From positions 13,200,283-13,264,282 of the forward strand of contig OY855914.1 in assembly GCA_963693305.1 (NCBI GenBank): DNA of 64,000 nucleotides, written 5' to 3'. A model generated the notes under the pieces. The model did not search any database and was not told the origin of the DNA. It was given only the letters and a program-made list of their open reading frames with translations. The position numbers were made by a program, and so were the translations under genes. The DNA is from Meandrina meandrites (lineage: Eukaryota > Cnidaria > Anthozoa > Scleractinia > Meandrinidae). Positions 32,923 to 64,000 of this stretch are shown here, in pieces (the first letter of the stretch is position 1; the number at the start of each line of letters is the position of its first letter).

Positions 32923-33987
32923 ATGTCGAATCGGACAATTCCCTCGGGAAACTCAAGTTGTTTTTTTCTGGACGTGATCCTGTTTCAGGCCAGCCATCGA
33001 TCTTTGTATATCTCAACTGTTTTCACCAGCGTATTAAATGCTGTATCCTCAGTGTTCGCCATTGTCGGAAACAGCATCATTCTAACTGCGATCCTCAAGA
33101 CAAAAGCTTTACGGACTTGTTCGAATTATTTTCTCGGAAACCTGGTTTTATCGGATTTATTGGTAGGGCTCATGGTTCAACCTCTTTTTGTCCTTTACAA
33201 AACTGGAGAAGCGCTGGGGAAGTACTCATGTCTTGCACATGGATTGTTTTCAACAAGTGCTTGGCTTTGTGCCGGCGTATCGTTCTTGACATTGACTGCC
33301 TTAAACTGCGAAAGACATATTGCTATCTTCTCGGCTCTGAGGTACAAGAGCCTGGTGAATCCTCGAATAGTCCTAAAGATTTCACTTCTCATTTGGTTGT
33401 TGTCCTTATTGCTCGTTTCATCGCGATTCTACGGCCTCAGCAACGCTGTTTTCCATGCCATTTGTTCTACTATTATCGCTACTAGCTTGGTGACTTTTAT
33501 TGTCATTTCAATTCGGATTAACCGCGTTGTTCAACGACATCGAATGCAGATTGCCATTAACCAACAAGTCAAAGAAGTACAAAGTTGGCAAAGACAAGCT
33601 CAGGAGACAGGGCATGCTAGAAACGTTGCGTGGGTCACATTTATCTTCTTCGCTTGTTACTTTCCTACATTAGCTGTTATGATAGCGTATACTGTCGTCG
33701 GTTACACCGTCAAGTTAAAAACTGTATACCTTTGGTCCGATACGCTTGTTTTCCTTAATTCCTCAATCAATCCAGGCATTTATTGTTGGAGGAACAGAGG
33801 TATAAGAAAAGCCGTCTTAAAAGTCCTTAATTATGGAACAGAGACTTCGAATTCCGTACAACCTGCCTGTGATCGGCGGTATTCAAGAAGTGCCGCCGTT
33901 ATTAACACTATTCATCCCATGGACTCATTCCTGCCAGGCAGCGATAATGGACACATCAGGAACGAAATACACAGTACGTCTTTCTAG
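32923..33987 (+). CDS. Class A (rhodopsin-like) G-protein-coupled receptor, single exon
   Basis: Complete intronless frame of 354 residues. I start at ATG 32923 (MSNRTIPSGNSS); an in-frame upstream GTG is not credible in an animal. N-terminus has two N-glycosylation sequons (N3, N10). Landmarks: GN50 in TM1, NLVLSDLLVGL with D78 in TM2, C103 at the top of TM3, ERH at 130-132 in place of DRY, W158 in TM4, FFACYFP (242-248) in TM6, and NSSINPGIYCW (279-289) holding NPxxY in TM7, then a basic helix 8. TM5 lacks the usual proline, and ECL2 is very short with no obvious partner for C103 except C181. The tail is about 60 residues, Ser/Thr-rich. Ligand cannot be deduced; the pattern resembles the large intronless amine/adenosine/melanocortin-like GPCR sets of cnidarians. 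Plasma-membrane signalling protein. Confidence 0.88.
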   Translation: MSNRTIPSGNSSCFFLDVILFQASHRSLYISTVFTSVLNAVSSVFAIVGNSIILTAILKTKALRTCSNYFLGNLVLSDLLVGLMVQPLFVLYKTGEALGKYSCLAHGLFSTSAWLCAGVSFLTLTALNCERHIAIFSALRYKSLVNPRIVLKISLLIWLLSLLLVSSRFYGLSNAVFHAICSTIIATSLVTFIVISIRINRVVQRHRMQIAINQQVKEVQSWQRQAQETGHARNVAWVTFIFFACYFPTLAVMIAYTVVGYTVKLKTVYLWSDTLVFLNSSINPGIYCWRNRGIRKAVLKVLNYGTETSNSVQPACDRRYSRSAAVINTIHPMDSFLPGSDNGHIRNEIHSTSF

Positions 33988-41775: not shown

Positions 41776-41914
41776 TTTTTGAATTAACCTTTAATCTGAA
41801 TTCCCCTGGTTTAATTTTCATCTAAATAGAGAGAAGATTCCACTAACCTAATAAGGTGAGGTTTTTGATGGGGTTCACCGTGACACTATAAAGTACATCT
41901 ATACAGATCGTACA

Positions 41915-42287
41915 ACTACGGATCTACGCCGGCTACGGATCTTCGGATCTACACATCTACGCATCTACACATCTACACATCTACACATCTACACACCTAC
42001 GCATCTACGCAGCTACGCAGCTACGCAGCTACACATCTACACATCTACACATCTACACATCTACGCATCGACACATCTACACATCTACACATCCACACAT
42101 CTACACATCTACACATCCACACATCTACACATCTACACATCTACCCATCTACACATCTACGCATCTACGCATCTACGCATCTACGCATCTACGCATCTAC
42201 GCATCTACGCATCTACACATCTACACATCCACACATCCACACATCTACACATCTACACATCTACGCATCTACGCATCTACACATCTA
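41915..42287 (+). repeat. Decamer minisatellite (CTACRCATCT)n, part 1
   Basis: About 36 tandem units of 10 bp, alternating CTACACATCT and CTACGCATCT with occasional CCAC or AGCTACGC variants. No unit is separated by a unique spacer, so it is a minisatellite and not a CRISPR array. It continues after the TA MITE at 43076. Confidence 0.9.
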
Positions 42288-43073
42288 CAGTCAACTCTCT
42301 CTAAGACGGACACCGTCGGGACCGGTCCCAACTGTCCGCCTTACTAGAGAGAGGTGTCCAGCTTATACAGAGTCGGCGTAACGTGACCCCAGAAATATTC
42401 TGAGATATAATAATGCTCAACCTCTGCGCAATGAATACGCGTCTGTTCTAAGTTTGTTTAAAGTTATTTACTAAACAAAACCTACAAACCGGAACAAAAA
42501 TAATATTATAAAATTGACTCGGCTTTCGTCTACAGTATTACACATACGTACGGCGAGCAGTACACTCATGCTGCAAACTGGAACATGTCTCTCGCCTCAG
42601 TGTTTAAGCCAACGTTTCGGATAGTCTAGTATAAAAAGGTATTCATTTCTTTCAAAAAGGAATGTCGTAAATTCAAAACTTGGGCGTTTCTCTCGCTTCT
42701 ACAGACTGTAAAATTAGCAAAATCTTTGTTGCACATGCAGCTAAGGAGAGAAAAAATTCGTGATAACGGATTGTTTTTGGTGTAACAGTTTAAACTTCTC
42801 AAAGAGTCATGTACATGTATTTGGTTAAATTTCGCCTCCTCAAAACGAAATTTGCTGTCATATTCAGTATCTGCATTTCCGTTTTGAAGTATTATTAATT
42901 ACTAAACTAAAGACTTCTCAAGTGTCCGTTGACGGTTCCAAAGTGTCCGTTGTCCGTCTTAGAGGGGTGTCCGTCTTATAGGGAGTTAAGTTACAGAAAA
43001 ATGACCAAAAAACGGCAGGGACCAACACCAGGTGTCCGTCTTAAAGAGGTGTCCGTTAAGAGAGAGTTGACTG
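42288..43073. mobile_element. TA-flanked MITE (Tc1/mariner-type ends), long copy
   Basis: Starts CAGTCAACTCTCTCTAAGAC and ends GAGAGAGTTGACTG, with TA on each side (42286-42287, 43074-43075). The shared subterminal block GTGTCCGTCTTA recurs at both ends. Compared with the 155-bp copy at 43363-43517 it carries about 630 bp of extra interior. It splits the decamer minisatellite. Confidence 0.72.
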
Positions 43074-46130: not shown

Positions 46131-46310
46131 TTATTGAATCCAGTATCTTTTGCTTTTCATGATGGGTATGCCAGCCTCAAAATTCCAAGAAATCGCCATC
46201 CTTTAATACAAGCAAACAAATAATTACACAAGGTAGCCCTCAAAACAGACCAAAAGAACAAAAAGGTTGGAATGGATTTAACTTCATTGCGAAAAGCGAC
46301 ACGAACTTAC

Positions 46311-47888
46311 CAAAAACGTTTTATCTTCTTTTATCATTCGTTCATCCACATGGCCTAAATTTTCTAACTGGAGAGAAATAAGATAAAACTGCAACGTTAG
46401 CTTTGAGTAACATTCATGTTTCAGTAGTCTATGAGGTGTGGCTTTAAGAGAGCTGCTGTTGTTTAATAACGGAAATGTGTACTCGAAAGAAGGAGCAGTG
46501 ATGTTCACAAAGGTAACTAACGAATTAATCTTCCGTTAATGGCAACAGCTAACTCTGTTTACCTGACAATACCGTGAAAATGGAAATTTTCCGCACGTGA
46601 CTTTACTTTATATGGGCTAAATAACTTTTATTAAAAATAATTGAACAGTGTTTAAACATCTTTGAAGCTTTCTTGTAATTGGGTTACGTTCATGTTGCAA
46701 ATATTACAACTTACCCATTCGCTATAAGAAATTTAGTCATCCTTTTTTTAATTTTTGTGATTGAACAGTAAGTTTTAGTATTCCCGCTCTGCAATCGTTT
46801 CTGTTCTTCTGCAGTCAGTTTACGAAACGAGTCTTAAAAATATACAATGGCAAAACAAGAGTTGCTTGATGAAAAATTATAGCCTATCTCCCTGTAATTT
46901 TTGACGTTTTACACATTCATTATAAAACGAAAATGAAATGAAATGTAAAGAACGGCAAGAACAATGTTGCAGTTTAAAGTGGTGAATTTAAGTCGTATAA
47001 TATTGTGATTGGAAACGAATATTATGTCGATGTCGCTGCCTTCTCGGCAGATATATTTTATTAGGTTTTAATTGAAAGAAATGGCTGCGTATTGACTGTC
47101 AGTAAAGAAGGGCAAATATTTTAAACTTGTTTTGATGCCGATCATTAATTTTCTATTCTATTCTATAGCTTTCATTTGTATTAACAGGCTACTATATATA
47201 TATGCAACTTCAAGTAGAGCCCAAATGATTTATTTCGTGGACTTGAAGAAACAACTCATTTAATCGATCGAATATAGCTTCTGGCTGAAGTGACAGGCAG
47301 TTAGAGTCAAGTAAAGGTTCTTGTAGCATGGAGTCAGATCAGATTAAACTGAGTAGTGTGTGATCAATGTCATTTGTATAATTACTTTCAAAATTCCAAG
47401 AATTAAACATGTTAGTTTCTCAAGTTCGTTTGAGAATGGTACCTCACAAGGTATGAAACTGGATGACTCAGTTAAAAATGTTGTTAATATTTCAAAAAAT
47501 GGTTTAATTTCATGACTGTCAATCTCAATTGAGAATGCTATCTTACAAATAAACTTATCGCTAAAGGAAAGTATGATTAAATTTCAATTAGATAGCAGAA
47601 TAACTTGTGAAAAACTAAAACGTTTGGTTCTGGACCGTTGATCTTCCATTGTCAAGTAGGAATTCTGATTAAGAACCTTAGGTAAATTTTTAAAGGATCT
47701 AGCATACCAACCTTTCTTCTTAAGTGAGAACGCTTTCCCTTTTGAGGATTACAGTACATGGCACCTGGTCGGCATCTATTTTTAAAGTCCGGACTGGGTT
47801 TGGACTCCACAGACTGGATAAAGAATACTGTTAGGCAAGTCAAAATTACAACAAAACATATATAGGTCCTGACTATCATTTTCGTCAT
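46311..47888 (-). CDS. CRPG secreted peptide precursor, gene B (exons 1-2; last exon uncertain)
   Basis: Exon 1 (47888-47712, 59 codons) encodes a signal peptide (MTKMIVRTYICFVVILTCLT then a hydrophobic run to about residue 29), then KPSPDFKNR and CRPGAMYCNPQKGKR, a C-x6-C loop followed by Gly-Lys-Arg, and ends HLRRK at the donor AAAG|GTTGGT in phase 0. Exon 2 (46367-46311, exactly 19 codons) follows TTATTTCTCTCCAG, reads LENLGHVDERMIKEDKTFL, and ends at GTAAGT; it matches exon 2 of gene C in length, phase and pattern (L-x-N...D-x-T-F). Gly-Lys-Arg after the loop is the classic signal for dibasic cleavage and C-terminal amidation, so the product could be a cyclic amidated peptide. A possible last exon is 46175-46131 (AGIPIMKSKRYWIQ, stop), phase 0 but with a mediocre acceptor. 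TATA box at 47969-47976. Function inferred. Confidence 0.68.
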
Positions 47889-47968
47889 ATTTTGAATACA
47901 CAATTTGGTTTGTGGACCTCACTAGTTGAGTGGAGGTGATATGATGTCGATCGGCCTGAAACGGTCTT

Positions 47969-47976
47969 CTTTTATA
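47969..47976 (-). promoter_or_regulatory. TATA box of gene B
   Basis: CTCCTATAAAAGAAG on the minus strand, about 81 bp upstream of the ATG at 47888, which puts a predicted start site about 50 bp before the ATG. Confidence 0.6.
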
Positions 47977-49307
47977 GGAGCTTACTATTGTTAAGATTTC
48001 TTACTGAAGTACCGTAGGTTGCTTTAATTGAAGCTCAGTGACGGATACAAATGACATTGTGGGCAGATGATTTTTCATTACTATGACAGTTATAAGGAAA
48101 CTGACAAATATGTAATAACTCCTCTACATTTTAATTCCGTCTTCATCTATTGTTTAGTAAAAACCAGAAAAACAGGTGCTTTTGACCAATAACGCCAACA
48201 GGGGGAAGAGAAATGCAAATTAGGCAAACATCCGACGGGGATCTGCTCAACAAAACAATAATTTGCGTTTGATTTCAGTAAACAGTGTGGAGTATTTAAA
48301 ATTGAGTTCCTGTTATGTCCATAGATTACTTTTATTTATTCTTACCAGTTCTCGCTTTAATTAATGTAGCAGAGTAAACACTTAAATTGTTTATTTTAAA
48401 AGTAGGTTAATCTCAATAACAAAATATTTTATTCCTTCAAGTATATTGACGTTGAAAATTATCCATCAGCGATTTAAAGCCTTTTCAGCTCGTTTGTTAG
48501 AATATAGTATTTATTTTAACGTTTCAGCTCTTCTTGTGTGGAGATTAACTGAAAACATCAAGATGTTTGTTGTCCAATTTCGCACTAGTTAGTAATAACC
48601 CTAGGGATTGAAGTGTCATTCCCCTTGAAATCAATTAAGGCCATAATCCAAAGGACTTCGACTATATTAAAATAAACAAATTTAAACTACATTTAAATAA
48701 TAATTACAAAACATACGAAACTGGAACCTCTGCGGATACTTTAAAGACGCCGACGACGACATTAAGAAAATTTTAATTTCCGAATAAAACTTGATTGCTT
48801 CTTTCGCAAGGAAAAACCGTTTGCTGTGGAGCGGATGATGTAAATTTAAAATAAAATTAAAATGATTAGTAATAGCCTGACGTTGGTACAGTATAACATG
48901 GCTTATATTAACTTGGGTTGTTGTACAAACATATCAATTGTGTTGCAAATAGGGAATGTTTAAACACAACGTATTTGGCAATAAGAATATTCAGTACTGT
49001 CTATAGACGTCGACTTTCATGAATTTGCAAGTCTTTAGCTAGTTTTTTTTTCTCAAAGTAAAAGTCGTTTTGCTTCTCATTTCATTCTCTTGTCATTTTC
49101 CCGGTTCCAAGACATAATTAAATAAAACGAATGCAACGGAGCTCTACAACTTTTTTTCTGCCGCATGCAGTACAAGTCGACATAACTATTGTCCAGAGAT
49201 CAAATACTAAGCCCGACGTCAGCTTCCTGATGAATAAGACATTTCCAAATTAAATCTACAGGTAAAGATCCGCTTCAACGTGCTTGCTTTAATTCAAGTC
49301 TGTAAAT
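47977..49307. other. Spacer between peptide genes
   Basis: No repeat end or exon recognised; plain AT-rich DNA. Confidence 0.4.
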
Positions 49308-49394
49308 TTAGAAATCAGTAGCGATAACTTTCAACTTCTTACCACTTCGGATCATGGGTTTTAACCAGTCGCTTTTGCGCCTTAGGATCTTAAT
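49308..49394 (-). other. Orphan phase-0 terminal-exon candidate
   Basis: After the tract TTTATCTGTTTGATCTGATTAAG on the minus strand an open frame in phase 0 reads ILRRKSDWLKPMIRSGKKLK then VIATDF and a stop. It has the form of a basic last exon as in the peptide genes but no signal-peptide exon sits close upstream. Could be an alternative end for gene C or chance. Confidence 0.2.
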
Positions 49395-49473
49395 CAGATC
49401 AAACAGATAAAGTACTGAATGATTTCCCGGACATGAGCCGTTTGAAAGGTTTCTTGGAAAAGCAGAATAGGAG

Positions 49474-49820
49474 ACACAGTACTCTGAAAATGGAATGAAA
49501 TCTACATGAATCAAATAAATGAAAGTAGCTAAATATGAATATGAAAGTTCGTGTGACAAGTGGCTGTCTGTTGTGGAGCATCTAGCATCTCCAATGTAAA
49601 GTCCGTGTACGAGCCTAGTGGCTCATACAGCCGGAGAGAATAAGGGACACAGTACTCTGAAAGTGGAATGAAATCTACATGAATCGAATAAATGAAAGTA
49701 GCTAAATATGAATATGAAAGTTCGTGTGACTAGTGGCTGTCTGTTATGGAGCCACTAGCATCTCCAATGTGAAGTCCGTGTACGAGCCTAGTGGCCCATA
49801 CAGCCGGCGCGTATTTCTGA
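49474..49820. repeat. Tandem duplication, period 173 bp
   Basis: Two near-identical units starting ACACAGTACTCTGAAA at 49474 and 49647, each running through ATGAATATGAAAGTTCGTGT and GTCCGTGTACGAGCCTAGTG to CATACAGCCGG. Few differences, so a young duplication. Confidence 0.85.
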
Positions 49821-50276
49821 TTCAGTGTAGCAAAGGAGTATTTCTACCGCCTCCCTCCATCCCTCCCTCCTGGATGTGATGCACACTAACCATTAATTAT
49901 AAGGTCACCACACCGCCCACATGATAGCATGTCTTCCGTCATAAACGTCAGAATTGAGGCCAGGCGCGATAAAACTGTAATACATTTAATTTGCACTTTT
50001 GGTTTATTTGGCTTTTTCATATCAATGTCATATCATATCATATCATATCTTATTATATGGAGGAGAGTGTTTTACTGGGAACTAAACCACTCGTAGATTC
50101 CATCCGGGACCGGGACGTATTTTCCGTTTGACACGCTTACGAGTGTCGTATCGCTCATTGACGTCACGATTCGCGCCATTTCTACTTTGTTGAATGAACT
50201 TCGTTTCTTGTGTCGTTTGTTGTCAGCAAGCACCGACAAGCAGGTTTAATTTGTTTAATTAAGGAGGCTTCCAATT

Positions 50277-50922
50277 GTTTCCAGCACATTCCAGCGCTTA
50301 AACTTTGATGGGCCAGTACTACAAATCCTTATCAGTTGCTGCTACAATAATGATATCAAACAAATGTCCGATCATTACTAAAGAAGTTGTAGCCATTTTC
50401 AGGACGTCACTGGTTACCATAGCAATAGTTTATCCTGTTAAAAACACCCTTAATTTTCCATTTTAGTGCTTATAACGCAAAAATGAGCACGGTGACCCCC
50501 ATTTTTTATTATTGAATAATGACCTGCATGGTAAGATGCAACTTTTTGCAAAGTTAAAAAAAATTTTATCTAGCGGTTTTAGAGCCACCTTAAATTCTCG
50601 GAATTTTAAGGTGGCTCTGAAACTGCTAGATAAATTTTTTTTTAACTTTGCAAAAAGTTGCATCTTACCATGCTGGTCATTATTCAATAATAAAAAATGG
50701 GGGTCACCGTGCTCATTTTTGAGTTATAAGCACTTAAATGGAAAATTAAGGGTGTTTTTAACAGGTTAAACTGTTGCTATGGTAACAAGTGACGTCATAA
50801 AAATGACTTTAACTTGTTCAGTAATGATCAGACATTTGTTTGATATCATTATTGTAGCAGCAACTGATAAGGATTTGTAGTACTGGCCCATCAAAGTTTA
50901 AGCGCTGGAAATTGCTGGAAAC
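50277..50922. mobile_element. 646-bp foldback (near-perfect palindrome) element
   Basis: Starts GTTTCCAGCA and ends TGCTGGAAAC; two arms of about 320 bp mirror each other around 50599 (CCTTAAATTCTCGGAATTTTAAGG centre), including TAAACTTTGATGGGCCAGTA and TACTGGCCCATCAAAGTTTA. There is practically no loop. Frames on opposite strands (50463-50687, 50512-50769) encode the same peptide because of the symmetry and are not genes. A solo arm end lies at 14745-14935. Target duplication not resolved. Confidence 0.8.
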
Positions 50923-51539
50923 TTTTAGAAGGAATTCTTCGCAAGGAATTGCACAAAGTGCAAGATGTAGTAAAGAAGAAAACAAAAGCAGTCGAAAACT
51001 ATCGGCCGTCATCAAGACATTGCCGCATCGGATTCAAGTCAAAGTCAGTGATGTTTTTAGTTCTTACGTGGTATGTTATTTAGTTGACAAGTATTTCATG
51101 TATTTTTTTTTTATTGGAATTCAGTTAGTGTTCAGTTCTATATCCTGGGGTCCGTTTCTAGCCCTCGAAAGTCCCGAAAAGTTTTCGCACCCGGAAAGCC
51201 ATAGCAAAGTCTTAAACCTTATGATTACAGAGCTACTTAATTCCATGATAAGTTTAATATGAACATGGGTTCCCTTCATACAAAGTTTCAGGCCTATACA
51301 CTTCTCTGTTTTGAAGTTACAGATAACTCAAAATGGTTTTGCGGACCCGAAAAGATTCCTGGGCTTTCGAGAAACGGGCTCCTGGACGAGTGCTTTGTAT
51401 TTTCTGTTCGATTCTGTGAAGACGAACGGTGATTTGTAAAACTTGCTCGATTTCTCGAAAACAATAAAATAAAAATCGGCAATTTCAACTACATCTGGTA
51501 TCCACATAATAAAAAGAACATTAAAAGATGCCTCAAAGA
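50923..51539. other. Spacer, nothing supported
   Basis: Open frames at 50912-51262 and 51294-51582 run partly through the foldback end and have no splice support. Near-identical phrases such as GGACCCGAAAAGATTCCTGG and a CTTTCGAGAAACGGGCTCCT block suggest repeat-derived sequence. Confidence 0.35.
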
Positions 51540-51850
51540 TATGAATTTGATGTTCTCGTGGCAAAAACGACATCCGCATCAAATCCGTCCTTCTTTCGAT
51601 ACAAGGACCGCTTAAGCCGTTCCCAATAATCCAAGGTTATCTACAAGGCTAGTTGCTGGGATTGCGATGAACTTTACACTCTACATTGGCAAAACAAAAC
51701 GAAGGCTCCAGAATAGGAAAACAGAACATTTTAACGCTCTTGTTAAAAGGGATCTTTCTTCGACCATTGCTGAACATGTAAGAGCCACTGGACATAATAT
51801 CAAATGGGACCATTTTGATAATCGGTTCAGGAAAATCTGATTAACCCTGT
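51540..51850 (+). pseudogene. Second Penelope-like remnant, GIY-YIG domain
   Basis: Conceptual translation with frameshifts reads FFRYKDRLSRSQ, VIYKASCWDCDEL, then YIGKTKRRLQNRKTEHFNAL and STIAEHVRATGHNI, the Cys-containing lead-in and GIY-YIG nuclease of a Penelope-like element. It differs clearly from the 27-30 kb element (YIGETKRRLKDRFNEH), so it is another family. Contains at least one stop and one frame change. The ACGAAACGTC at 52075-52084 may mark its 3' end. Confidence 0.7.
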
Positions 51851-52112
51851 GAAATTAAGGAGACTTTATTTATCCAAGAGCTAAAGCCTTCTTTAAATGT
51901 GAACATCAGCAGCGAAAAGCTTCTGTTATTTTCATAGTTAATTTATTATGTTATATTAGATTACTGCTGAAGATCATCTTTTGTTCTCAGTGTAGGTTCC
52001 AGACCCCCGTTTTATGTATAAACAGTTGTCAAAAAGTTTTACCTTTGCTTTCGAAAATGTATGTAGTCTAGCATACGAAACGTCAAGTCGAATAAATATA
52101 CGTTATTTTGGA

Positions 52113-52192
52113 ATGTTTATCACCGCGGTTTGTCTACTATTATTAGTCAAGCCCTTAATTGCTGTATCGGAAGGGTCGTCAAGTTTCCCCGG
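52113..52192 (+). CDS. Possible orphan signal-peptide exon
   Basis: ATG at 52113 begins MFITAVCLLLLVKPLIAVSE, a good signal peptide, then GSSSFP, and reaches a strong donor CCCGG|GTAAGC in phase 2. The peptide genes here use phase 0, so this is not simply another copy. No downstream partner exon recognised. It starts about 30 bp after the Penelope remnant's putative end. May be chance. Confidence 0.28.
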
Positions 52193-52350
52193 GTAAGCCT
52201 GCCATTGAGAAGGCGAGTTTTGGACAGTGTACGTGCAGTGCGTGATTGCCTTTTGTCAGGCGCCTCGTGTGCGTGATCAAGATTAACGAAGATGGCTTCT
52301 TTTCGACCTTGGTTGTGAGTAAAATGCTTTGGTTTACATGCTGCTCTTTA

Positions 52351-52525
52351 TAGAGCGTTTTAACATGACATCTCGGTAACCATATTGGTGTTCCAAAACA
52401 AAGAGACGGCGGCCATATTGGTGAACCAAGCCATTCCTCCGGGAATCAAACTATTTTTATGCAAAAATCGTCTTTTGTTTTTGCAAACCAATATGGCCGC
52501 TGGTCACGTGAGTGAAAACGCTCTA
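52351..52525. mobile_element. Inverted-repeat MITE, 175 bp
   Basis: TAGAGCGTTTTAACATGACA at the left and GTCACGTGAGTGAAAACGCTCTA at the right, inverted; inner arms share CCATATTGGT. The AGAGCGTTTTCACTCACGTG end is, from memory, frequent in coral genomes. Confidence 0.62.
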
Positions 52526-52689
52526 TTTTTGTCTATTGATTCGTGTTTATTCCCGCAAGTCATAGAAATTTAGAGTCATGCATGTTTAATATTCCTCCTC
52601 CCCCCTCCTCCCTTGAATTCCCAAGGTACGTGCAACCTTCATATATCTAGGGAAATAAAACCGTAGCTAGTTCTAACGAGGGAAAATTA

Positions 52690-52717
52690 TACTGGGGATC
52701 ATCATCCCCAGTATATA
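52690..52717. repeat. Short perfect hairpin
   Basis: TATACTGGGGAT and ATCCCCAGTATA face each other across a 4-bp loop. No adjacent gene; meaning unknown. Confidence 0.5.
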
Positions 52718-53446
52718 TATGCCAGTGGTACAATGAAAAGAGTCACACGACCAGCTTTTTGTGTTTTCAGCTTTTTAGGCTGTAAAATATAAACGTAAAA
52801 GAAAGAAGGCCCAATGGTATCAATTAAGAGGAAATTCTCGTCTTAAGATAAGTGGGTAGACCAAAGTTAACCCGAGTTATATTAAGGGGCAATTTTTCCT
52901 ATATTTTTTTAATTAATTAATACCTATTGCGGTTGCCCTTTTTACTGAATTTAAATGCATCATCCCAATAAATTATTGCGTTCTCAATAGACTTGCTACA
53001 AGTCGACCTCACGAGTTAAAACGCCCCAACGATTTATTATTTTTTAACATTTTTGACATTTATTTTAGCTTTCGTTTTCGTTTTTTTGCTGACCAACCAA
53101 CCCATTTTCACGGAAGTGAGACGATGGGAAACAAAACATTTTATTGTGATGGTTAAATAAAAGAGCGCGTAGAGAGTCAAGCTGCTAAGATACTGGGGGC
53201 GATGACAATGATAATGATGATGATGATGCAAAACGTATCTTTATTGTTTCAAAACAACTTAGTAATTTTAATTATTGTAACACGCACTTCACTTTAAGGG
53301 CTTCCTTGGCCAGTTCATCCAATCAATTCAAAGACAACTTGTTTACCATTCATATAGTTTGCACATTTTTCTCTTTTGGAAGTAGATTCACAGACTGCTT
53401 AGACTTTATAACTTTCTTTGATTAACTGACATAGTCTGGTGAAAAT

Positions 53447-54494
53447 TCAATACAAATTGTCCATTTTTTGATGCAGTTTGCTTTGTTTCCTTTGTTTTCC
53501 GAACTTGTCGTCTTGGAAGTTGTATCTTTCCTCATTGAAATTCTAGAACGGACACAAAGAAAGAAAAAAAAAGCAATTCAACTTTATTATAACAATTCAG
53601 CTCAAATGTTACAAGTTATTAAGTGATAAATGTACTCATTATTTATGCTGATGCTGTTCTGTTCCAGGCGTTCGGTTAGTTGTGGAACAGCGCGTAGCGT
53701 GACGACCATCGAGCACATCCCACACCACTCCCCTCATTTTTCGCTCGCCGTTTTTCGCGCAGCTCCCCACTAACCGAACGCCTGGAACAGACTAAATTTG
53801 AGAAAAGCATGTTAATCGACGACTGTCAAAAAGCCGGTATCTTTGAAATAAAACGTTAAAGGGGCAGTCTCACCAAGATTTAGTGCTACTTGAAAATACA
53901 ATTGGTGTTTAAAGGTTATTTTGTTGATAGGGAGTGCACCTTTTTAATTCTAGCACAGTTTACACAAAAACTTAGAAGACCTCTCGTGATACTGCCCCTT
54001 TAACGAGAAAAGCATTAAAATAAGTTCCCTAAGAAACCTACCGATATATAAGAGTGTTTTATTCATAAGGTTAAAATTTTCTCTTTGCTGTTCATGTTCT
54101 GCACTTTCAACAGTCTGCTCATAATAGCAAGGTGATTACTAGTTTACATGCCTACCTTAAACGTTTCATCGTCGGCAGCCAAACTACTTCTGAGGTCCAA
54201 CCGATTCCTTAACTGAAAATATAGACAGTTATTCTGTGTACAGAGTCTACTAAAATGAAGGTTAGCAGCTACGTTTTAGGCAAGAAAAAACATTCTCTTA
54301 TGTGGATGAACGTTAAGAAAAAAAGATTTCGCAAAAAGAGCTGTGTACCATTGCAGGCATCTCACTGCGACCAGTGTTATGGCGGCAAACATCGATCCCG
54401 GCATACAACGAGGACTTGAATTCGACACTCCAAAAGATAGGAGAAATACAGAACACAAGACAACGACAAATTTATGGCACATTACACTATTCAT
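53447..54494 (-). CDS. CMPG secreted peptide precursor, gene C (complete, 93 aa)
   Basis: Three exons, all phase 0. Exon 1 (54494-54366, 43 codons) has a signal peptide (MNSVMCHKFVVVLCSVFLLS...), then NSSPRCMPGSMFAAITLVA to donor GCA|GTGAGA. Exon 2 (54212-54156, 19 codons) follows TCTATATTTTCAG, reads LRNRLDLRSSLAADDETFK, donor GTAGGC; same length and pattern as exon 2 of gene B. Exon 3 (53542-53447, 31 codons plus TGA) follows a long T/C tract and CTAG, starts NFNEERYNFQDDKFG and ends in basic KQRKQSKLHQK then MDNLY. AATAAAG lies about 200 bp downstream. The CxPGxM core is kept but the second loop Cys is replaced by Ala and there is no Gly-basic site, so it cannot make the cyclic amidated product predicted for B, D and E. 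Two MITEs sit in intron 2. TATA at 54565. Confidence 0.65.
53658..53791. mobile_element. MITE in intron 2 of gene C
   Basis: TCTGTTCCAGGCGTTCGGTTAGT at the left edge is mirrored by ACTAACCGAACGCCTGGAACAGA at the right; about 134 bp. No coding capacity. Confidence 0.68.
53856..54003. mobile_element. Short TTAA MITE in intron 2 of gene C
   Basis: TTAAAGGGGCAGTCTCACCA at the left and GTGATACTGCCCCTTTAA at the right; 148 bp. Shares its terminal TTAAAGGGGCA with the 21739-22130 element. Confidence 0.68.
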
Positions 54495-54564
54495 TCTTCT
54501 GGCTCAACACAGCTGAGTTTCGAAAGTTGATTGCATCAGGACGTTGTAGTTTTGCAAACTTACA

Positions 54565-54571
54565 ATTTATA
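54565..54571 (-). promoter_or_regulatory. TATA box of gene C
   Basis: AGGACTATAAATTG on the minus strand, 71 bp before the ATG at 54494. Comparable spacing to gene B. Confidence 0.55.
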
Positions 54572-54599
54572 GTCCTGCTCGATTTTTATTACAATTTTA

Positions 54600-56384
54600 G
54601 GAAAATTGCCAATGTTTTATTTTTTCGATTATATCAGTATTTCCGACAGGACTGTGACAAAGAAGTTTCTATGGGAAATTTTACTGAGAAAGCTGTTAAG
54701 GTTTACAAAGGAAAAAGGCTGACATCCGACGTTTTTGATAAAGCGAATGAACCAATAGATACATGGCTATTTCTTCCTTAGCTACACTGTCAGAACGACA
54801 AACTAAGATGACATTTTCTTGGATGACTTTTTCGAAATAAATGGCGCCCCGATAGATTTTAGTAAAGAACGTGACAAATCAAAAAACGTTAATATCCTAT
54901 TAATAAATGAACTTATTGACTGAACGATAAAACAAAAGCTGTTCTAATTAACGCTTAAAAAGAGATTTAAAATAAAGTGTAAATCTGGCGAAGTTATCAA
55001 AGAGTTGGTATTTGCTAAAAAAGTATCATTTTAGCTGTCTTAGAACCTAATACAAAGAGAATTAGAGTGCTATCAACTTAATTGGGTTTTTAAATTAACC
55101 GCCGTCTATATTAAAAATATGTTATCCGGTTGTTACCTGTCTTTCTAAAACGGCGGTTGTAAAGAGGCTATTTTTATTTAAGGTTGTCTTAATACCGTAA
55201 CGGCTTTGTATTCAATACTTAATCTTTTCCTGCTTTATACAAGACGAAGGGAAAAAAAGAAAACACGAATAGAAATGACACAAATTTTCGCTGAAAAGAA
55301 TGCAAAAAACAATTTTGCAAACCAGAAAAACATCCTTGGTATAATTTTTGCTTGTTTTAAAATTGTTACGGACAACGGGAGGACTTAAAAGCCCCCATAC
55401 ACATCTTCACACTCCTTTTGACGTAGTTGGTATACCAGACACTCAGAATTTACTCCCAGCTGGCAACATAATAGTTGTTTTTAATTGCTGACCTGAGGTG
55501 ACTGTCTTGAAACCTTCACATTATGGCAACACTCAGTGTGGAGTGTATAGCACGTCATGAGCAACCAGAGATATAATACTCCGTCGTGCTAACAAAGTAT
55601 TTTATTTAGGACAATTATATAGTGGTCTTTCTTGCTTTCGAAATAAGTAAAACAGAATATTTACTCGAATTGTCCTTCTAAAAAACTCTATTGGGCTTAT
55701 AAGTCATCTCCGAACCATCTCTGCGAGATAAACAACTACATAGCTTGTTTTAGAGAAAGAACAAGAGTTTCAATTTATATTTTACAGAAGATCTTAGACA
55801 CTGGTCAGGATATGGAGTTTCTATTTGTTCCATAGTTTTGTATACTGTCTAACAATTATAATGGCTAGCTCGGCAGGCGGGTGAGATCAATCAAATCCTG
55901 TGCTGTGATTGGCTACCAAAGTGGGACCGCCCTTTATTGAGCAGGCTTGTTCGGTGAAGATAGGAAGGAATTATTAACAATTACAACAAATGTCCGATAA
56001 ACCGACTATTGACAAAAGAAAGCCAGTGAAATGGCAATGTCGAAGCATTCTTAATGGTGATAATGGTTGTAAGAGAATGAAAACACAGATATAATTGAAT
56101 ATCAGGTGCTACGTACAGCTTTTTCCAGGAGCCGTAATCGGGAAAGGATACCGTAAGCACGAGATCCACGCAGCCCTATATATATGATACGAGACAATTT
56201 TTATATTTTTAGAACGGTTAGTGCCATCCTCTACGTCATTAACACGCGCAAATACACGGGAATTGTGTGGGTTCTCGCGTCGATGTTGCCGGAGTTGTGT
56301 GATAAATATATAAAAATAAATAAATATATCACTTTATTTAAGTGTCAGAGTATTTAGCTCTGCTGTACTAATTGAGGACACTGT
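54600..56384. other. Spacer, nothing supported
   Basis: A 135-codon plus-strand frame at 54374-54781 is antisense to gene C exon 1 and has no independent support. Nothing else recognisable up to the SINE at 56385. Confidence 0.4.
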
Positions 56385-56575
56385 AAATAAGCAAACAAAT
56401 ATTACAAATAGAACAGAACCTTGTTAAAAATCCCAACTGGAAGGAGGCTGACCAGTCGGTTATTTATAAAGCGTTGAAAGGAGTTGAATTGGGACCACCG
56501 AAGACAAATCCATCTAGGGACCTCCGGAATACAAGTCTAGCGCCCTAACCACTAGGCCACGCTGAGAAGTGCCAT
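56385..56575 (-). mobile_element. tRNA-headed coral-type SINE
   Basis: On the minus strand: CAGCGTGGCCTAGTGGTTAG (A box), GGGCGCTAGACTTGTATTCC, GGAGGTCCC, then a body with GGTGGTCCCAATTCAACTCC and GACTGGTCAGCCTCCTTCCA, and a CCAGTTGGGATTTTTAACA tail. This order matches a SINE I recall as abundant in scleractinian corals. B box decayed. Confidence 0.65.
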
Positions 56576-57603
56576 GTGAGTCGCGAGTAACTCTGCCGCA
56601 AAAGACTCTGTGCTAAAAGTCGAGAACGAAAAAGAAATCAGTCGTTCTGTGAACAACAAATTTTTTATGGACGATATATGTACAATAGGGTCACAATAGG
56701 CTGTACCACTTCCGCATCGTGCTAAATTCATCTCCTGGATTTTGTCAATTAAGCACAAGACTAATCTACCGTTTAAAAATTAGAGAAGTTTTCTGAGGTG
56801 AAATTCACGATGACTCGTTTATATTTCAATTGTACTGTGGTAATGGCTGTATTTTTAAATATATGATTGGCAGCTTTTGTACGTGGATTATATTTGCCTT
56901 GGTTGTTTTTGTTGTTTATCATGTGCGTGAAAGTGACCATATAATATACATTTGTAAGAAATAGCCTCGAAACGGTTGTGGCTCAGTAAAAATTCAAAGC
57001 TTATCTCTGTTCTTGTCGACCAAGGTTTTGATTTGTCTTAAAATTGCATTTGTTTGACGAACTGTCTCAGAGAAGAATGTTCGGTAGCAAGAGAAAATTC
57101 TCTTGGTTGTAGCTCAAGCTTTCTGCCAAGTTAATAATTCCTTTTACTATTGAGGTGTTCTAATTGCATTTAATCCGATGTCAGAAGTCACAAGAGATTT
57201 TAATTTTAGGACTGATTTCGTTTTTGAATTCTTTGATGTCAAAAATAAATAATTCAGATTAATTACACTTTTTCCTTGTAATGATTGGAAAAAGTTAGTC
57301 ATCCCAAAGGGAAACAAAAATAGCAACAGTTGAATGCCCCCTGCTTTCAAAAGCAAGACCAAAATTAACTGCAGCTTTTTACATCATCTAACAAAGTAAG
57401 TACATGTCCAGAAAAAGAAAAGCTGCACTGAAAGTTATAATACAGGATACTAAAAGAAATATTTTGGAGCAGCATTAGTTAGATAAGTGACTTCAATAAA
57501 ATATTCTCATTATGCAGTAACTTACAACCAAGCATTAAAGAAAAATCGAAATGGCATATAGGGTTGAATTTCGAAAAAAAAATGGTTTGTGCATTTTTTG
57601 CTG

Positions 57604-57825
57604 TCAATCTTTATCCTTTATTGCTGCGCTGTGAGCACTGTGGGACTCCTCGTATTGCATGTCTGACGAGTCTTCGCGGCTGGATTTGTCCGAAAAAATA
57701 CTACTGTAGACATCTGAATCACTTGACAAGAAGTGCTCAAGGAGGCATTGACGTAAATTAGGAATAGAAAATGATGAAAGACATCCAATGTTTGCTTCAC
57801 TCACAGGGCTAATTTTGAACGCCAT
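57604..57825 (-). CDS. Possible small acidic/Ser-rich protein or N-terminal exon (73 aa)
   Basis: ATG in a strong context (ACAAAATGG) opens MAFKISPVSEANIGCLSSFS, followed by IPNLRQCLLEHF and a Ser/Asp/Glu-rich stretch (SSDSDVYSSIFSDK, REDSSDMQYEE) to a stop. Composition looks protein-like rather than random, and the upstream 60 bp are CpG-rich. I do not recognise it; it could be the start of a gene or of an interspersed repeat that carries coding sequence. No downstream exon found. Confidence 0.3.
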   Translation of the reverse strand: MAFKISPVSEANIGCLSSFSIPNLRQCLLEHFLSSDSDVYSSIFSDKSSREDSSDMQYEESHSAHSAAIKDKD

Positions 57826-57829
57826 TTTG

Positions 57830-59196
57830 TTTATATTTCTCCGCGCGACGTCCTCGCGGCAGTACGCGCGTGTGCCACACACGATGGCGCGATTTGTTCT
57901 AAAAATAGAAAAATTACCAGTACTCGTGTTTACGGTCTCCTGCCCCGATTATGGCTCCTGCTTTCATAAAATATATTTACGAAACAAAACTTATCCTTAT
58001 AACATGCTTATTGAAAATAACACCGCGAGAGACTCACGCGAGAGACTTGCTATAGTGATCCATTATTTCGTTATAACAGTTCTAGAAACTGTAAACTTTA
58101 ACTGCTTGAGTTACTATGTATAAAAATGTAGAAACATTAGGCAAATTACAGTAAAACGCGTAGGCACATTCTAAGCGCAGGCGTGCATAGTAGACACGGT
58201 ACCTTCTTCTATCATATGTTTGCCCGGCAGAACAACCAGGCTTTGCTAACAGAAAACCATTTATAGTGATAGTAAAGACTGTGTGTTACTGGAATTTAAC
58301 GTGCTTGTACAAGTTGATTGAAAGGCTTAAGTGACATCAGCGAATTGGAGTTAGAATATAAAATCATGGATAAAAAAGCTCTTTAAACTCTCGATACCAC
58401 CTTGACCACCTTCCAAACTATTGAAGGTACTGGGAAATAATAAAAATCCTGGTATTGTGACACCCACTCACTGAAGTGTCCTACTTTTAATACTTTTAAC
58501 AAAATTAGAAACAGTGGGAAAAAAAATCATAGGTACACTGATGGGCTGCTGATAGGAAAAGCGATCATTTTGGAAAAAATATAAGGAATATCGTTATAGA
58601 CTAATTTGGTGTCATATTCCATGTTGCCTTGTACGCTACAATACTCAACTCGGTGCAATTTGTGGAACTACACCGAACTTTCCAAGGTTTCGATAAATGT
58701 TTTTGTATAGTTTCTTGCCACTTACCCCCCATGTTTTGCTGTTATGGTATGATAGTCATTTTAGTCACCTACTAAAGAAAGCGTGAAAGCGGAAAACAGA
58801 TCACAGCATTCGAAGCTAAGAACTTTTTGGGGTGATAATGAAAAACAAACAGTGGCACAAAGAAGTGTGCTTGATAGGTGCTATTTGTGTAAATCACACA
58901 GAGTTTCATCCAAAGACAGCCAGCCACCTGAGGGTAGATTTAACTTCTGGATTACCGTTCTAATGCAATTCCCTGACAGATTATACGTCTTTTTACATTG
59001 ATATCGTGGTAATTGCGCTTCGAAGTTTGAAATTTGACAACTTAAGGAAAGATGACAGAATCATACGGTGACCCTGGTACTTAAAGTTAATTGTAACGAC
59101 AACAATAACTCAAACTTAACGTCATAAGCTAGATTGTGTTTGAGTGCCGCACTTTACAGAAATCTGCTTCACAAAAATGACTTGTTGCTGACCTAC
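57830..59196. other. Spacer below gene D
   Basis: Should contain the remaining exons of gene D if it has the same layout as B and C, but no 57-nt L-x-N...D-x-T-F exon was found. A phase-0 terminal-exon candidate lies just beyond at 57230-57147 (NSKTKSVLKLKSLVTSDIGL then NAIRTPQ, stop) after TTTATTTTTGACATCAAAG. Confidence 0.3.
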
Positions 59197-59328
59197 CTTT
59201 TCCTGGCGTTTTCCTTTCCGGTTGCACATCATTAAACCCGGTCGACACGGCTTGGCTTCTACGAAATCAAGAAATATTAACTGAGCTAGGAGCAACGTCG
59301 AGAAAAATAAGCCTCTTTTGCTGAACAT
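59197..59328 (-). CDS. CRPG secreted peptide precursor, gene D (exon 1)
   Basis: 44 codons from ATG 59328. Signal peptide MFSKRGLFFSTLLLAQLIFL with cleavage likely after DFVEA, then KPCRPGLMMCNRKGKRQEK and the donor GAAAAG|GTAGGT in phase 0. The C-x6-C loop starts two residues after the predicted cleavage site, and the loop is followed by Asn-Arg-Lys-Gly-Lys-Arg, again a Gly-dibasic amidation and cleavage site, so the mature peptide would be about 13 residues. The close match to gene B (CN...KGKR) at another locus argues for selection on the motif. Later exons are not established (see 57830-59196). Gene lies on the same strand as B and C. Signal peptide and motif are seen; amidation and secretion are inferred. 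Confidence 0.62.
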
Positions 59329-59479
59329 TTCTTGTAATTCTAAGGTCCCTCTGGCTGAAACTTGTTATGTTAAGGTACAGATAGCCCCTTGTTTTGTGAT
59401 GTGGAATATGTAATTCGGCGTGGCTTTAATAACGACCATCACTAAAATGCGGGGAATTTTGGATTGCTTTGGCGGCACA

Positions 59480-62400
59480 AGAAATGACAGAAAATCAATA
59501 AGTGTGCGGACTAACGATTTTAAAAAATAGTAGAGGCTGTTGCTTGATCAACATTTTGTTTTTAATCAAAACTGAAAAGCCAATCAAATACAAACTAAAG
59601 AATTGAATGCAAATCATGGATAAAAATGATGAAACGTTATGCTCCAGCGAGTGAAATAAATATGGACCGCATTGTCTCAACGATAAAATGTAATTTGTTT
59701 GATTTATAAAAGATGAGTTAATTTTGATTATTTATTTTCAAACACATGGCAATTGCTGTCTTTAGCCGCAGGACGTTACAACATTAAACATGATGTCAAT
59801 TTCGCTTTTATCATAAAATTTAAGTTTTTATTGAAGTGTACAGACTTTATCTTGTGTTTGGATTTGAGCTCACGAATTTTGACGGCTTGAAAGCTGTAAT
59901 TACTCTGTTGACATAATAGCACTAAATTCATTTTAATCGAAGAGCGTAACAAGCCAACCGCCCATTTGCCCGATATTCAAACAAGCAGTAGAACACTTGC
60001 TTTTCAAACGAGCCGACAGCAAATATTGGATCTTAATATCCGAGGAACCTTTTATTACACCTACAGTCGGTACAAGAAAATTTAATAAGAAACGAAAAGG
60101 AAGCGTTCGTTTATATCAAGAAGGTATAAAATTGATCTTACTTTTTGTTTGAAAGTAAATCTTAACGTATTCTTGCTTTTTTTTCCTGTTTTGCCTCACT
60201 TTTCAGCCTTTTTAGTCTCAACTACATTCCCTATGAAGAAATTACAGTTGCTTTTTTTCACCGTTTGGAGAAGAGAACAAGGAATAAAATACTGCTATGT
60301 TCTTAAGAATTTGTTCATTCTGAGCATGCGTCTATTGAGTTTTAGATGCACACGAAGGTTTGGAGAACTGTTTCAAGGGAACCGCGAGATCTCCCCCGTA
60401 TGCGCGCTAAACTCCCAAATGCATCCCTAGTTCCATAGACACACACGGCTAAAGCATGAACCAATTCTTTCATAGAGATCAGGAATAAGCTAGAAACTTA
60501 CATTTGCGAGTTGTTTTAGCGGAATGTCACGCAGTGTCTGCAAGAATTTGTTACATCTAGACTGCTCTTATAAATTTGGAAGACGCCATGACTACACTCG
60601 TCGTCTTCATGCACACCGATGAGAAAGGTTGGGACCAGGGGTCTGTTCCTTCTCTTGTCATGCACTTTCTCACTCTCCCGTGCGCGAATTTACTGGGTAT
60701 GTTATACAGTAATAATTAGTAAAAGGGAAATTGAGTTTTTCTTGAACCTTGAACCGCGATTGCTTCACAGACGACAAAGGCGATATGTGTGTCGCGCTAT
60801 GCAGCTAAGAAAAAATTATGTCCGTGTATTTCGTGTCATTGGCCGAGATAAATAAAGCGATGTCATACAGATATACTCTTAACATGGAATTATTATTTTC
60901 GCTAGAAGAGTTGGTCTGTATATAGCATAGTTTTTTTTCTATGTTGATTATCATATTTCCTAAAGAAAGAAGTTTTCACAAATCCTATTCTTATATTTTA
61001 TACTACTGCAGAATCCTGTATGGATGTATATATGTAATAATGAAGACACGATGAATCATATATTCATTTAAGTTGATTTAAAAAGAAATTGTGAAAGCGT
61101 GATTGTATGAAGCAATAATTGGCTAGCACTGCCGGGTTAAATACATTTGCATAGGGAGACTAAGAGCATACATACATTTTGCTTGGTATGTCTTTTCTGG
61201 GCTGTTAGAATAAATTGGTTAATAATACAGGATCACAGACCTTTGGTTTTGCTGAATATAAAAATTCGTTAAATCAAATAGTGAATTAAATGGCTCAGGC
61301 ATGCAAAATTGGAAAGTCATAGTTAAAGCACTTCATTTTGACAGAATGGTCAAACTGTAAGAAAGGAAGTGGACATTTTGCATCTCAAAATCGTTAAGAC
61401 GTCATGATACTTGTTTTCAACTAGAACTCTCTGAAGAAAATCACTGTGAACATGTACTTCTGTTTTACATTCTATATACTTCAGAGATTGCTTCTCTCAG
61501 ACTCTAGGCTCGTGAACTACAATAATTGAACCAGTCAATTCCCTTTGTAAGACAAGGTTGCCACCATTAATAACTTCAATTTCCTATCTTTGCATTTCCC
61601 TTAAAAAAACTTAAAATGCTTTCGATTAGTGTAATTGCCAGTCTTAAAAATAATTTTAATCCAAACGTTAAGCCATACACGTTAAATGTACGCAACACTC
61701 TTCAGAATTGATTTTGAATACTTCTTGTGGCACCAAATTTTCTCTACATCATAATTAAAAACGCGGGCCGCTAAAGTAATATTTAACATTTTACTTTCCT
61801 TTTAATTCGGTCTTTATGAACTCTTTGAATTGACAGTTAGAAATTTAGTACAGGAAATTAACTCAAATTCATGTCCATTTTAGATTGGGGATGTTTATTA
61901 ATTGCTTCTCTTTTGCCGGCTATTCAATCCTGACAAATTAAACAATACTTCAATGGCTAGTCTCTGCTTGTCATTTAGCGGAATATGTAATGAATGCGTT
62001 GTTAAAAAAAGTTGACAACCTTAAAAACCCATATCCTCTGACCAAAATATAACGTATTGGGGTTTTAGCAATACGCGAACGACACTTCTACAGTTATCAT
62101 CTAAATGTACGATTGATTCTTTATTTTAGACAAAAATCTACAAAACAACCTCAAACGATATAGTTTGCTCTACTTAGTACACTGTCTAAGGAAATGTAAA
62201 ATTCTAATCCTTGTTTTGTTTTTGTTTGCATAGTTTGGTTATAAAAGAAATGATGGTAGTAAAATACTTTTTTTTCTGAAATTTTGGAATAAAACGTTTG
62301 AAAAAAGAATACCCTGGTTTTACTTTTTACTTTTAGTCTTTTCTTTTATATTTTTTTATTATAAATGTTTAACACTAGGCTACAGGAAAGGAGTCTCCCA

Positions 62401-62497
62401 CACAGAAGACAAAATGTCCTTCAAAAGATGCCGGCTCATGTTGTTCGCACTCCTCTTAACATTGTGTTTATACGGTTTAGAGAAAAGTTGCTAGTCT
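59480..62497. other. Spacer, nothing supported
   Basis: Several short open frames (60149-60430, 60619-60855) have repeat-like CpG content and no splice support. No element ends recognised. Confidence 0.4.
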
Positions 62498-62640
62498 GTT
62501 TAGTATCAGGACGCTCGTCACGTTCGAACCCAGTTAATGCGCCCACCCTGTGTTTGGGAGGTCACTGGTTAGATTCCCTTCGGTGGTTCAGATTTTTTCT
62601 TTGTCCCACGCTCGTGAAATGATGAACATTTCATCTTTCT
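62498..62640 (+). mobile_element. tRNA-derived SINE, degenerate
   Basis: GCGCCCACCCTGTGTTTGGG and GGTCACTGGTTAGATTCCC correspond to the tRNA-like head, then CAGATTTTTTCTTTGTCCCA and CGCTCGTGA form the tail. Same family as 14461-14570. Confidence 0.55.
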
Positions 62641-63550
62641 TAATTAACATTTGATATCACTTGGTTTGAATATGCCATTCTAAGAAAAAATGAATTAACT
62701 TTTCATCGTTTTTTCCAATAGTATTTCATATTATCATACCTCTCGAACATTTTATGTTTAAAAGAAGACATTAATTTGATTGGCAGCGATTTGTCTATTT
62801 TTAGCTGCAAGATCGCGCTCGGGTAAAATGAATACATCGAATTCTATCAACCTTTCTTCTTAATTTTTGTATAACCTTTATCAGATAGTATGTATGTACT
62901 TCTCTACCTCAAATCCTTTCCACGCAGACAAAGAAAAAAAGATAATTCAAAAACGTCGGTGAAGTTTGATGAAAATCGCTTTGTCAAAGGAACTTGAAAA
63001 TACAAATGCTCCCGACAACAATTAGAGCACAGCTGATAACATTTATGCTTGGCGAAATATTGAATTTTGCATAATACCAATATCCGCAATGATTAATAAA
63101 AAAAACTTTCTGAACTGTTGAAACGTAACAATAAAAGTTATTAAACCTCAATGTTAATATCAGCCACCAATCCCACGTCAAAACATATTCAAGATTCGCA
63201 GGTTCTTTGCGAATACCTTTTAATTATTTAGACTATAGCTTACAATAGCACCAGTGCATTTAGTTTAGAAGAACAGGAAATTTAAAAGACTTCCTTGTCT
63301 TATGTTAATTAAACAAATCAGTTAGTTTCCGTGTGGTCAATAGATGACAAAACGGCTAATTGCTTCGAGCTACGAGTGCACCTCACTGAAGTTAAAGTGT
63401 GCTATAAAAATGGTAATGGAAATTCAGTTCTGTTCTTAAGAGCGTCTAAAAGGTTACGCAATTAACACTCATTTATTTTTTTTAATATTTTGTGCAGTAA
63501 AATTTAATTGCTCTACAAAATTTACACCAGTGAGGCAATACCGCATCACT
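62641..63550. other. Upstream region of gene E
   Basis: No element or exon recognised. A second TATAAAAA lies at about 63401. Confidence 0.4.
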
Positions 63551-63554
63551 GCAG

Positions 63555-63561
63555 TATAAAG
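63555..63561 (+). promoter_or_regulatory. TATA box of gene E
   Basis: CTGCAGTATAAAGAGAAC, 115 bp upstream of the ATG at 63670. Confidence 0.5.
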
Positions 63562-63669
63562 AGAACTCACAAAGGGCACTTTAGTCATTTAACTAGCATA
63601 TTTGTCAAAGAGCTTGAACGTTTCTCTTCTCCCCATTTAAAGTTAAGTTTTTTTTGTAAGTATAAAATC

Positions 63670-64000
63670 ATGAACAAGCAAACCAAGATGGCGCCGGTGG
63701 CTCTGATTTGTGTGATTCTGTTTGTATGCCAATCAGCTCGCGGACAGCGATGTCGCCCGGGGTCAATGGTCTGCGAACTTGGACGTTCTTTTATTCCAAA
63801 ACAGGTAAAGAGCGCGGAATCCTCATTTATTTTTGTTTTAGACTCAAAGTTGTACATTAGAATAAAAAGCTTATTTCGGCTATGGTAATTTAAAAGTCCT
63901 GCAGTTATCTGGCACGCATTGAAATTCCTTTTCTTAACATGCAGCGAGGTCTTTTTAAGCTGGATACCCCAAATCACTTGATCTCATTGATTTGTTGGTT
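63670..64000 (+). CDS. CRPG secreted peptide precursor, gene E (runs off the window)
   Basis: Exon 1 (63670-63804, 45 codons) begins MNKQTKMAPVALICVILFVC; signal cleavage is likely after QSARG, leaving QRCRPGSMVCELGRSFIPKQ and the donor AAACAG|GTAAAG in phase 0. The mature N-terminal Gln could form pyroglutamate, the C-x6-C loop is intact, and Gly-Arg right after CEL offers a monobasic amidation site, so a very short cyclic peptide is predicted. A probable exon 2 starts at 63945 after CCTTTTCTTAACATGCAG and reads RGLFKLDTPNHLISLICW in phase 0 to the window end; it does not show the L-x-N...T-F pattern of B and C. The only member on the plus strand, facing gene D. Processing is inferred. Confidence 0.62.

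Follow-up and report, generated by a model that had tools for sequence, protein, structure and literature searches.

A cluster of candidate precursor genes for small, ring-shaped secreted peptides in the stony coral Meandrina meandrites

What do four copies of a short cysteine motif, C-x-P-G-x-M, encode when they lie within 16 kb of one another in a coral genome? The motif sites occur in a stretch of 64,000 nucleotides (hereafter the window) from Meandrina meandrites (GCA_963693305.1, contig OY855914.1; C12:13200283-13264282 in our genome scans), beginning at 47774 (CRPGAMYC), 54407 (CMPGSMFA) and 59247 (CRPGLMMC) on the reverse strand and at 63751 (CRPGSMVC) on the forward strand. Ahead of each site lies a hydrophobic leader that has an ATG in frame, and behind it comes a phase-0 GT donor (AAG/GTTGGT, GCA/GTGAGA, AAG/GTAGGT and CAG/GTAAAG, respectively, the slash marking the exon end); all four sites were found where a sequence-only reading of this DNA had put them. 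We consider it likely that the cluster holds three precursor genes, here A (CRPGAMYC), B (CRPGLMMC) and C (CRPGSMVC), of a new stony-coral family of small secreted peptides that would be ring-shaped, amidated and used in signalling; the CMPGSMFA site lies in a first exon of gene B that would be alternative or decaying.

An 18-base pattern for C-x-P-G-x-M matched the window four times, compared to 0.10 +/- 0.30 matches expected from 100 shuffles. Across the genome (551 Mb in 56 contigs) it matched 810 times, a count inflated by a satellite, against 470 times in a control read backwards; at the genome-wide density 0.026 sites are expected per 17.5 kb, giving a Poisson probability of 1.8e-8 for at least four. 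A looser scan of the surrounding 264 kb found five places: these four loci and a CKINLM stretch that lacks the motif. When the pattern was extended to CRPGxMxC with MGN as second codon, five matches were found in the genome and one in the reversed control; three of the five were in the cluster, all with arginine, and the remaining two read CSPG. Uninterrupted CRPGxMxC codons were thus present three times in 551 Mb, all at this one place. By eye, neither CSPG site had a leader started by methionine, one of them having a preceding hydrophobic stretch with no upstream methionine. The more permissive C-x-P-G-x-M-x-C pattern gave 110 matches (16 in the control), mostly from a satellite encoding TGTCAACCCGGCTTTATGCGCTGC, and among the first 100 matches, checked by eye, CRPG was absent from the non-satellite sites. 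The satellite, which fits the pattern by chance, was located on contigs C1, C2, C7 and C8 (for example at C2:52.9-53.07 Mb and C8:0.24-0.75 Mb), in places with a spacing of 152 bases or multiples thereof.

The DNA around the four motifs had little in common, as the sequence-only reading had remarked: no mutual blastn match of the flanks was better than E = 0.08. In pairwise comparison of the paralogues A, B and C, 2 to 5 of the 18 bases that encode the six common residues differed, synonymously by the choice of codons, and the flanks could not be aligned. Protein searches of the genome with genes A, B and C returned only their own exons and did not detect one of the three from another, so diverged paralogues elsewhere may escape such searches.

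Relatives were found, among them proteins of another coral. Three protein searches retained 4 of 16, 1 of 1 and 7 of 7 candidates at E values up to 10, comprising nine distinct proteins, one of which (P0002) was the window's own CMPGSM frame, without the second cysteine, and was set aside. All eight remaining homologues, two of them from Oculina patagonica (P0001 and P0008), kept C-R-P-G-x-M-x-C, and in seven of the eight G-K-R followed four residues past the ring; in P0004, G-R followed after two. Over three orthologue pairs, with segment borders placed by eye and positions that are not independent, 49 of 50 residues of the ring and amidation site were identical, whereas the signal peptides agreed at 51 of 76 (Fisher P = 9e-6); over the two pairs with a pro-region the same segment was identical at 29 of 30 residues compared to 58 of 82 in the pro-region (Fisher P = 0.002). 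In these tests the ring segment of gene C was the whole mature part of exon 1, and the spacer ahead of the gene A ring (5 of 9 identical) was excluded from both. Retention in eight of eight homologues, through a word-based search that favours ring-keepers, together with the greater conservation of the ring than of the rest, bears out the earlier suggestion that the motif is kept by selection.

Gene A (47,888-46,177, reverse strand) was modelled with three exons, as in O. patagonica P0001 (ACROYT_G033376, 81 residues), which matched the exon 1 and 2 query with 77% identity over 96% of its length. Exon 1 (47712..47888) encodes a putative signal peptide, a short spacer, the CRPGAMYC ring (47751..47774), NPQK (47750-47739) and GKR (47738-47730) before the donor; translation may start at the second methionine, as in Oculina. 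Exon 2 (46311..46367) has 19 codons in phase 0-0 and stands in the same order in P0001, and position 46311, which had been taken as the edge of the cluster, turned out to be the end of this exon. Exon 3 (46177..46200) has seven codons and a stop and corresponds to the P0001 C-terminus, so that P0001 shows the gene A layout, with its first two exons and an end of seven residues; an AATAAA lies at 45956. Exon 2 of gene A (46367-46311) and that of gene B (54212-54156) were paired with a score of 38, the best in the region pair being 44, in a comparison of three same-strand frames of downstream DNA in which the choice was made by splice sites and the equal length of 19 codons; rescored on exon-shaped candidates, the pair reached 19 compared to 15 for the next best in the window.

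Gene B (59,328-53,447, reverse strand) joins the CRPGLMMC first exon to exons 2 and 3. The first exon (59197..59328) encodes a putative signal peptide, CRPGLMMC (59247-59224), NRK and GKR (59214-59206), ends at the donor AAG/GTAGGT and has P0008 and P0009 as relatives. Exon 2 (54156..54212) has 19 codons in phase 0-0, and its homologue stands behind the CRPGLMMC exon in P0008; exon 3 (53447..53542) has 31 codons and a stop, with a polyadenylation signal-like CAATAAAG at 53246. In P0008 (O. patagonica LOC144627982 isoform X3), the CRPGLMMC exon is joined to homologues of 54212-54156 and 53542-53447, and 35 of 50 residues of gene B exons 2 and 3 match. The contigs of P0001 and P0008 are listed at the same size, 23,458,249. 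Since one exon pair has two candidate first exons ahead of it, CRPGLMMC at 59.3 kb and CMPGSM at 54.4 kb, there would be three genes and not four: the sequence-only reading was right about four motif loci, and its implied four separate genes are rejected because of the P0008 join, which links the CRPGLMMC exon to exons just downstream of the CMPGSM exon. A separate exon 2 for the CRPGLMMC locus was sought between 54.4 and 59.2 kb and nothing convincing was found (best score 8), and exon 3 candidates for the CMPGSM locus at 53184/53159 were replaced by the exon at 53542.

The CMPGSM exon itself (54366..54494, reverse strand) encodes a putative signal peptide and CMPGSMFA, with a good leader and a good donor (GCA/GTGAGA) 153 bases ahead of exon 2, and protein searches found no relative besides its own frame (P0002). 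Judged from its sequence, it may serve gene B as an alternative first exon that has diverged, or it may be decaying. The label "isoform X3" of P0008 suggests that more isoforms exist. It is conceivable, if rather doubtful, that alternative promoters and first exons of gene B exchange the signalling peptide at the N-terminus, cyclic CRPGLMMC for linear CMPGSM, on a shared pro-region.

Gene C continues past the window edge. Exon 1 (63670..63804, forward strand) encodes a putative signal peptide, QR, CRPGSMVC (63751-63774), EL and GR (63781-63786), and ends at the donor CAG/GTAAAG. All 20 residues of its mature part ahead of the donor were identical in P0004; past the donor three intron-encoded residues (VKS) also match P0004, after which the frames diverge. 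A terminal exon of 47 codons with the acceptor tttctctgcatag is tentatively placed beyond the window at C12:13267249-13267392. A 19-codon exon 2 for gene C was rejected, the best score (12) not being convincing.

The modelled precursors comprise 85 (A), 94 (B) and 92 (C) residues, and past the signal peptide those of A, B (in its CRPGLMMC form) and C contain exactly two cysteines, six residues apart, so that a single ring is the only possible intrachain disulfide of each mature chain. The ring starts approximately 2-9 residues past the cleavage site, as placed by eye. The informative unit in genes A and B is C-R-P-G-x-M-x-C, three to four further residues and G-K-R, which suggests a ring peptide that is processed and amidated. 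The signal peptide would take the precursor into the secretory pathway, where the two cysteines of the motif would close an eight-residue ring (Cys1-Cys8 bridge), a prohormone convertase would cleave at Lys-Arg (at a single Arg in gene C), and a carboxypeptidase would remove the basic residues, the exposed glycine then becoming a C-terminal amide. Cleavage at KR and amidation from glycine have been confirmed by mass spectrometry in Nematostella, as reported in the excerpted text of PMC11087051. Each precursor would thereby yield one ring peptide of about 11-12 residues, roughly CRPGAMYCxxxx-NH2: the predicted products are approximately CRPGAMYCNPQK-NH2 for gene A, CRPGLMMCNRK-NH2 for gene B and perhaps pyroGlu-RCRPGSMVCEL-NH2 for gene C. 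The peptide is presumably a ligand of a class A G-protein-coupled receptor (GPCR). The ring as the receptor-binding element is plausible, since Aplysia allatostatin C without its bridge has a higher half-maximal effective concentration (excerpts of PMC8786951).

Several observations count against this interpretation. The homologue tally favours proteins that keep the ring, because the search gathers proteins with common five-residue words, many of which come from the ring, and the Fisher tests draw on four of the eight homologues (P0001, P0004, P0008 and P0009). Signal peptides were judged by hydropathy and not by a trained predictor, with cleavage sites placed by eye, and the residue ahead of the first ring cysteine varies (R, K, P, G or D), leaving the N-terminal cut ambiguous. 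As annotated, P0008 begins at a methionine just ahead of the ring and has no signal peptide, though the model may be incomplete. The CMPGSM exon has neither the second ring cysteine nor GKR, and hence no ring. Gene C carries only a monobasic GR, its last exon is a tentative proposal from one genome, and the stretch KLDTPNH is common to the P0004 read-through and the gene C intron, which makes the two sequences close. In the excerpted text of PMC11087051, Nematostella peptidomics in which amide and disulfide were allowed names no such peptide.

Other products could be encoded by such exons. Short disulfide peptides are common among cnidarian secretions, and a set of duplicated genes in a cluster would be in keeping with a venom family, so the cluster might encode venom or defence ring peptides, loaded in stinging capsules or mucus and amidated as some venom peptides are. 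We find this unlikely, as here a single disulfide would lie directly past the signal peptide, the ring is conserved above the rest and not diversified, and no Pfam family matched at cut-off. Quite unlikely, too, is an uncut small secreted structural or regulatory protein (e.g., of the skeletal matrix) in which GKR is merely a basic patch: the pro-regions are partly conserved (the 58 of 82 residues above) and gene C has no dibasic site, as such a protein would allow, but GKR stands past the ring in seven of the eight homologues and conservation falls outside the ring and GKR.

Basic residues and a possible amide would also suit a small cationic ring with antimicrobial action. The predicted product is short and weakly charged, however, and in the pairs compared its sequence is kept and not variable, which makes an antimicrobial role very unlikely. 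That the exons are short is what chance open frames with no gene behind them would give; two annotated Oculina proteins with the same exon order, four motifs where 0.10 were expected and the exclusive clustering in the genome render that explanation extremely improbable. Precursors of amidated ring peptides are our preferred reading: a real and conserved family, probably signalling and likely of stony corals.

As far as our searches reach, this family is new in sequence and ordinary in its general kind. The sequence-only reading named no described family with this signature, and the searches agree: sets of seven and eight proteins had no Pfam-A match at the curated cut-off, a PDB search with P0001 alone gave four matches, to unrelated proteins at E = 0.047 or worse, and a profile built from eight database proteins, of which some included read-through, had no match there. 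The best Pfam match, GPR15L to P0003 (E = 0.084, 13.6 bits compared to a cut-off of 27), was dropped. String searches of open-licence PMC full text found nothing, and no such peptide showed in the paper listings and excerpts covered, a scope that takes in neither preprints nor supplements and so leaves absence from print unproven; a paper search on the Oculina genome listed nothing on the cluster genes.

The general plan resembles that of known peptides. In the excerpted account of PMC7523074, Antho-RWamide (LRWamide) preprohormones of Hexacorallia carry one copy directly past the signal peptide, followed by an amidation and cleavage site, with more than one gene in some species. The cluster shares this single-copy layout, with one peptide directly after the signal peptide, and shares glycine followed by basic residues, as GKR in A, B and seven of eight homologues and as GR in gene C and P0004; the CMPGSM exon is without it. 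LRWamide peptides, however, are linear, end in (L/I/M)RWamide and have no two-cysteine ring, whereas the cluster peptides would end in NPQK, NRK and EL, and there is no sequence likeness between LRWamide and CRPGxMxC. The cyclic FRamides of Scyphozoa and Cubozoa (CXSPMCWFRXamide and CXGQMCWFRamide; excerpts of PMC6909153) are likewise cnidarian, with a presumed cystine ring from the first residue, methionine in the ring and a C-terminal amide, but have four residues between the cysteines and a WFR tail where the cluster has six and no WFR; according to the same excerpts, neither Staurozoa nor Octocorallia yielded any. Allatostatin C has six residues between two cysteines and one ring peptide per precursor, as in the cluster (excerpts of PMC8786951), but comparing by eye the single member quoted there, the Aplysia ring CMFNVVAC, given without an amide, RPGxMx shares the cysteines only and no AstC-like residues. 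The oxytocin/vasopressin layout also places a ring peptide directly past the signal peptide, with GKR and a carrier part behind it. Its ring runs from Cys-1 to Cys-6, that of the cluster would run from Cys-1 to Cys-8, and in place of a cysteine-rich neurophysin domain the modelled genes A to C have a cysteine-free pro-region.

Elsewhere in the window, an intronless class A GPCR frame (7tm_1, E = 4e-28) was found at 32923-33984, approximately 12 kb from the peptide cluster. Its best PDB matches were S1P, dopamine and cannabinoid receptors, and as these are lipid and amine receptors we make no claim that it is the receptor of the ring peptides. Two nearly identical reverse-transcriptase-like frames of 556 codons, which we take to be Penelope-like, lie head to head at 27312-30404, forming a near-perfect palindrome centred at 28858 with arms of about 1.75 kb. 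Further repeats comprised a minisatellite with an 8-base period at about 41870-42340, which opens repetitive forward-strand reading frames, a tandemly duplicated 173-base unit (94% alike) at 49464-49809, and an inverted repeat at 50268-50931 with 327-base arms, 93% complementary and 10 bases apart.

Peptide signalling in cnidarians is known largely through screens for repeated copies. One hexacoral study describes a script with a minimum of two, or of three, similar copies bearing processing sites, and used known peptides as TBLASTN queries and search patterns to find single-copy genes (excerpts of PMC7523074); a single-copy family unlike the known ones could escape such a screen. The pro-region is less conserved than the ring and is encoded by exons of its own, an arrangement that could let the ring exon be copied or exchanged as a unit; gene B suggests as much. 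If the proposed family is correct, the cluster would offer a case of ring exons and pro-region exons acting as separate modules, and a defined ring ligand with sequences that can be tested on orphan coral GPCRs.

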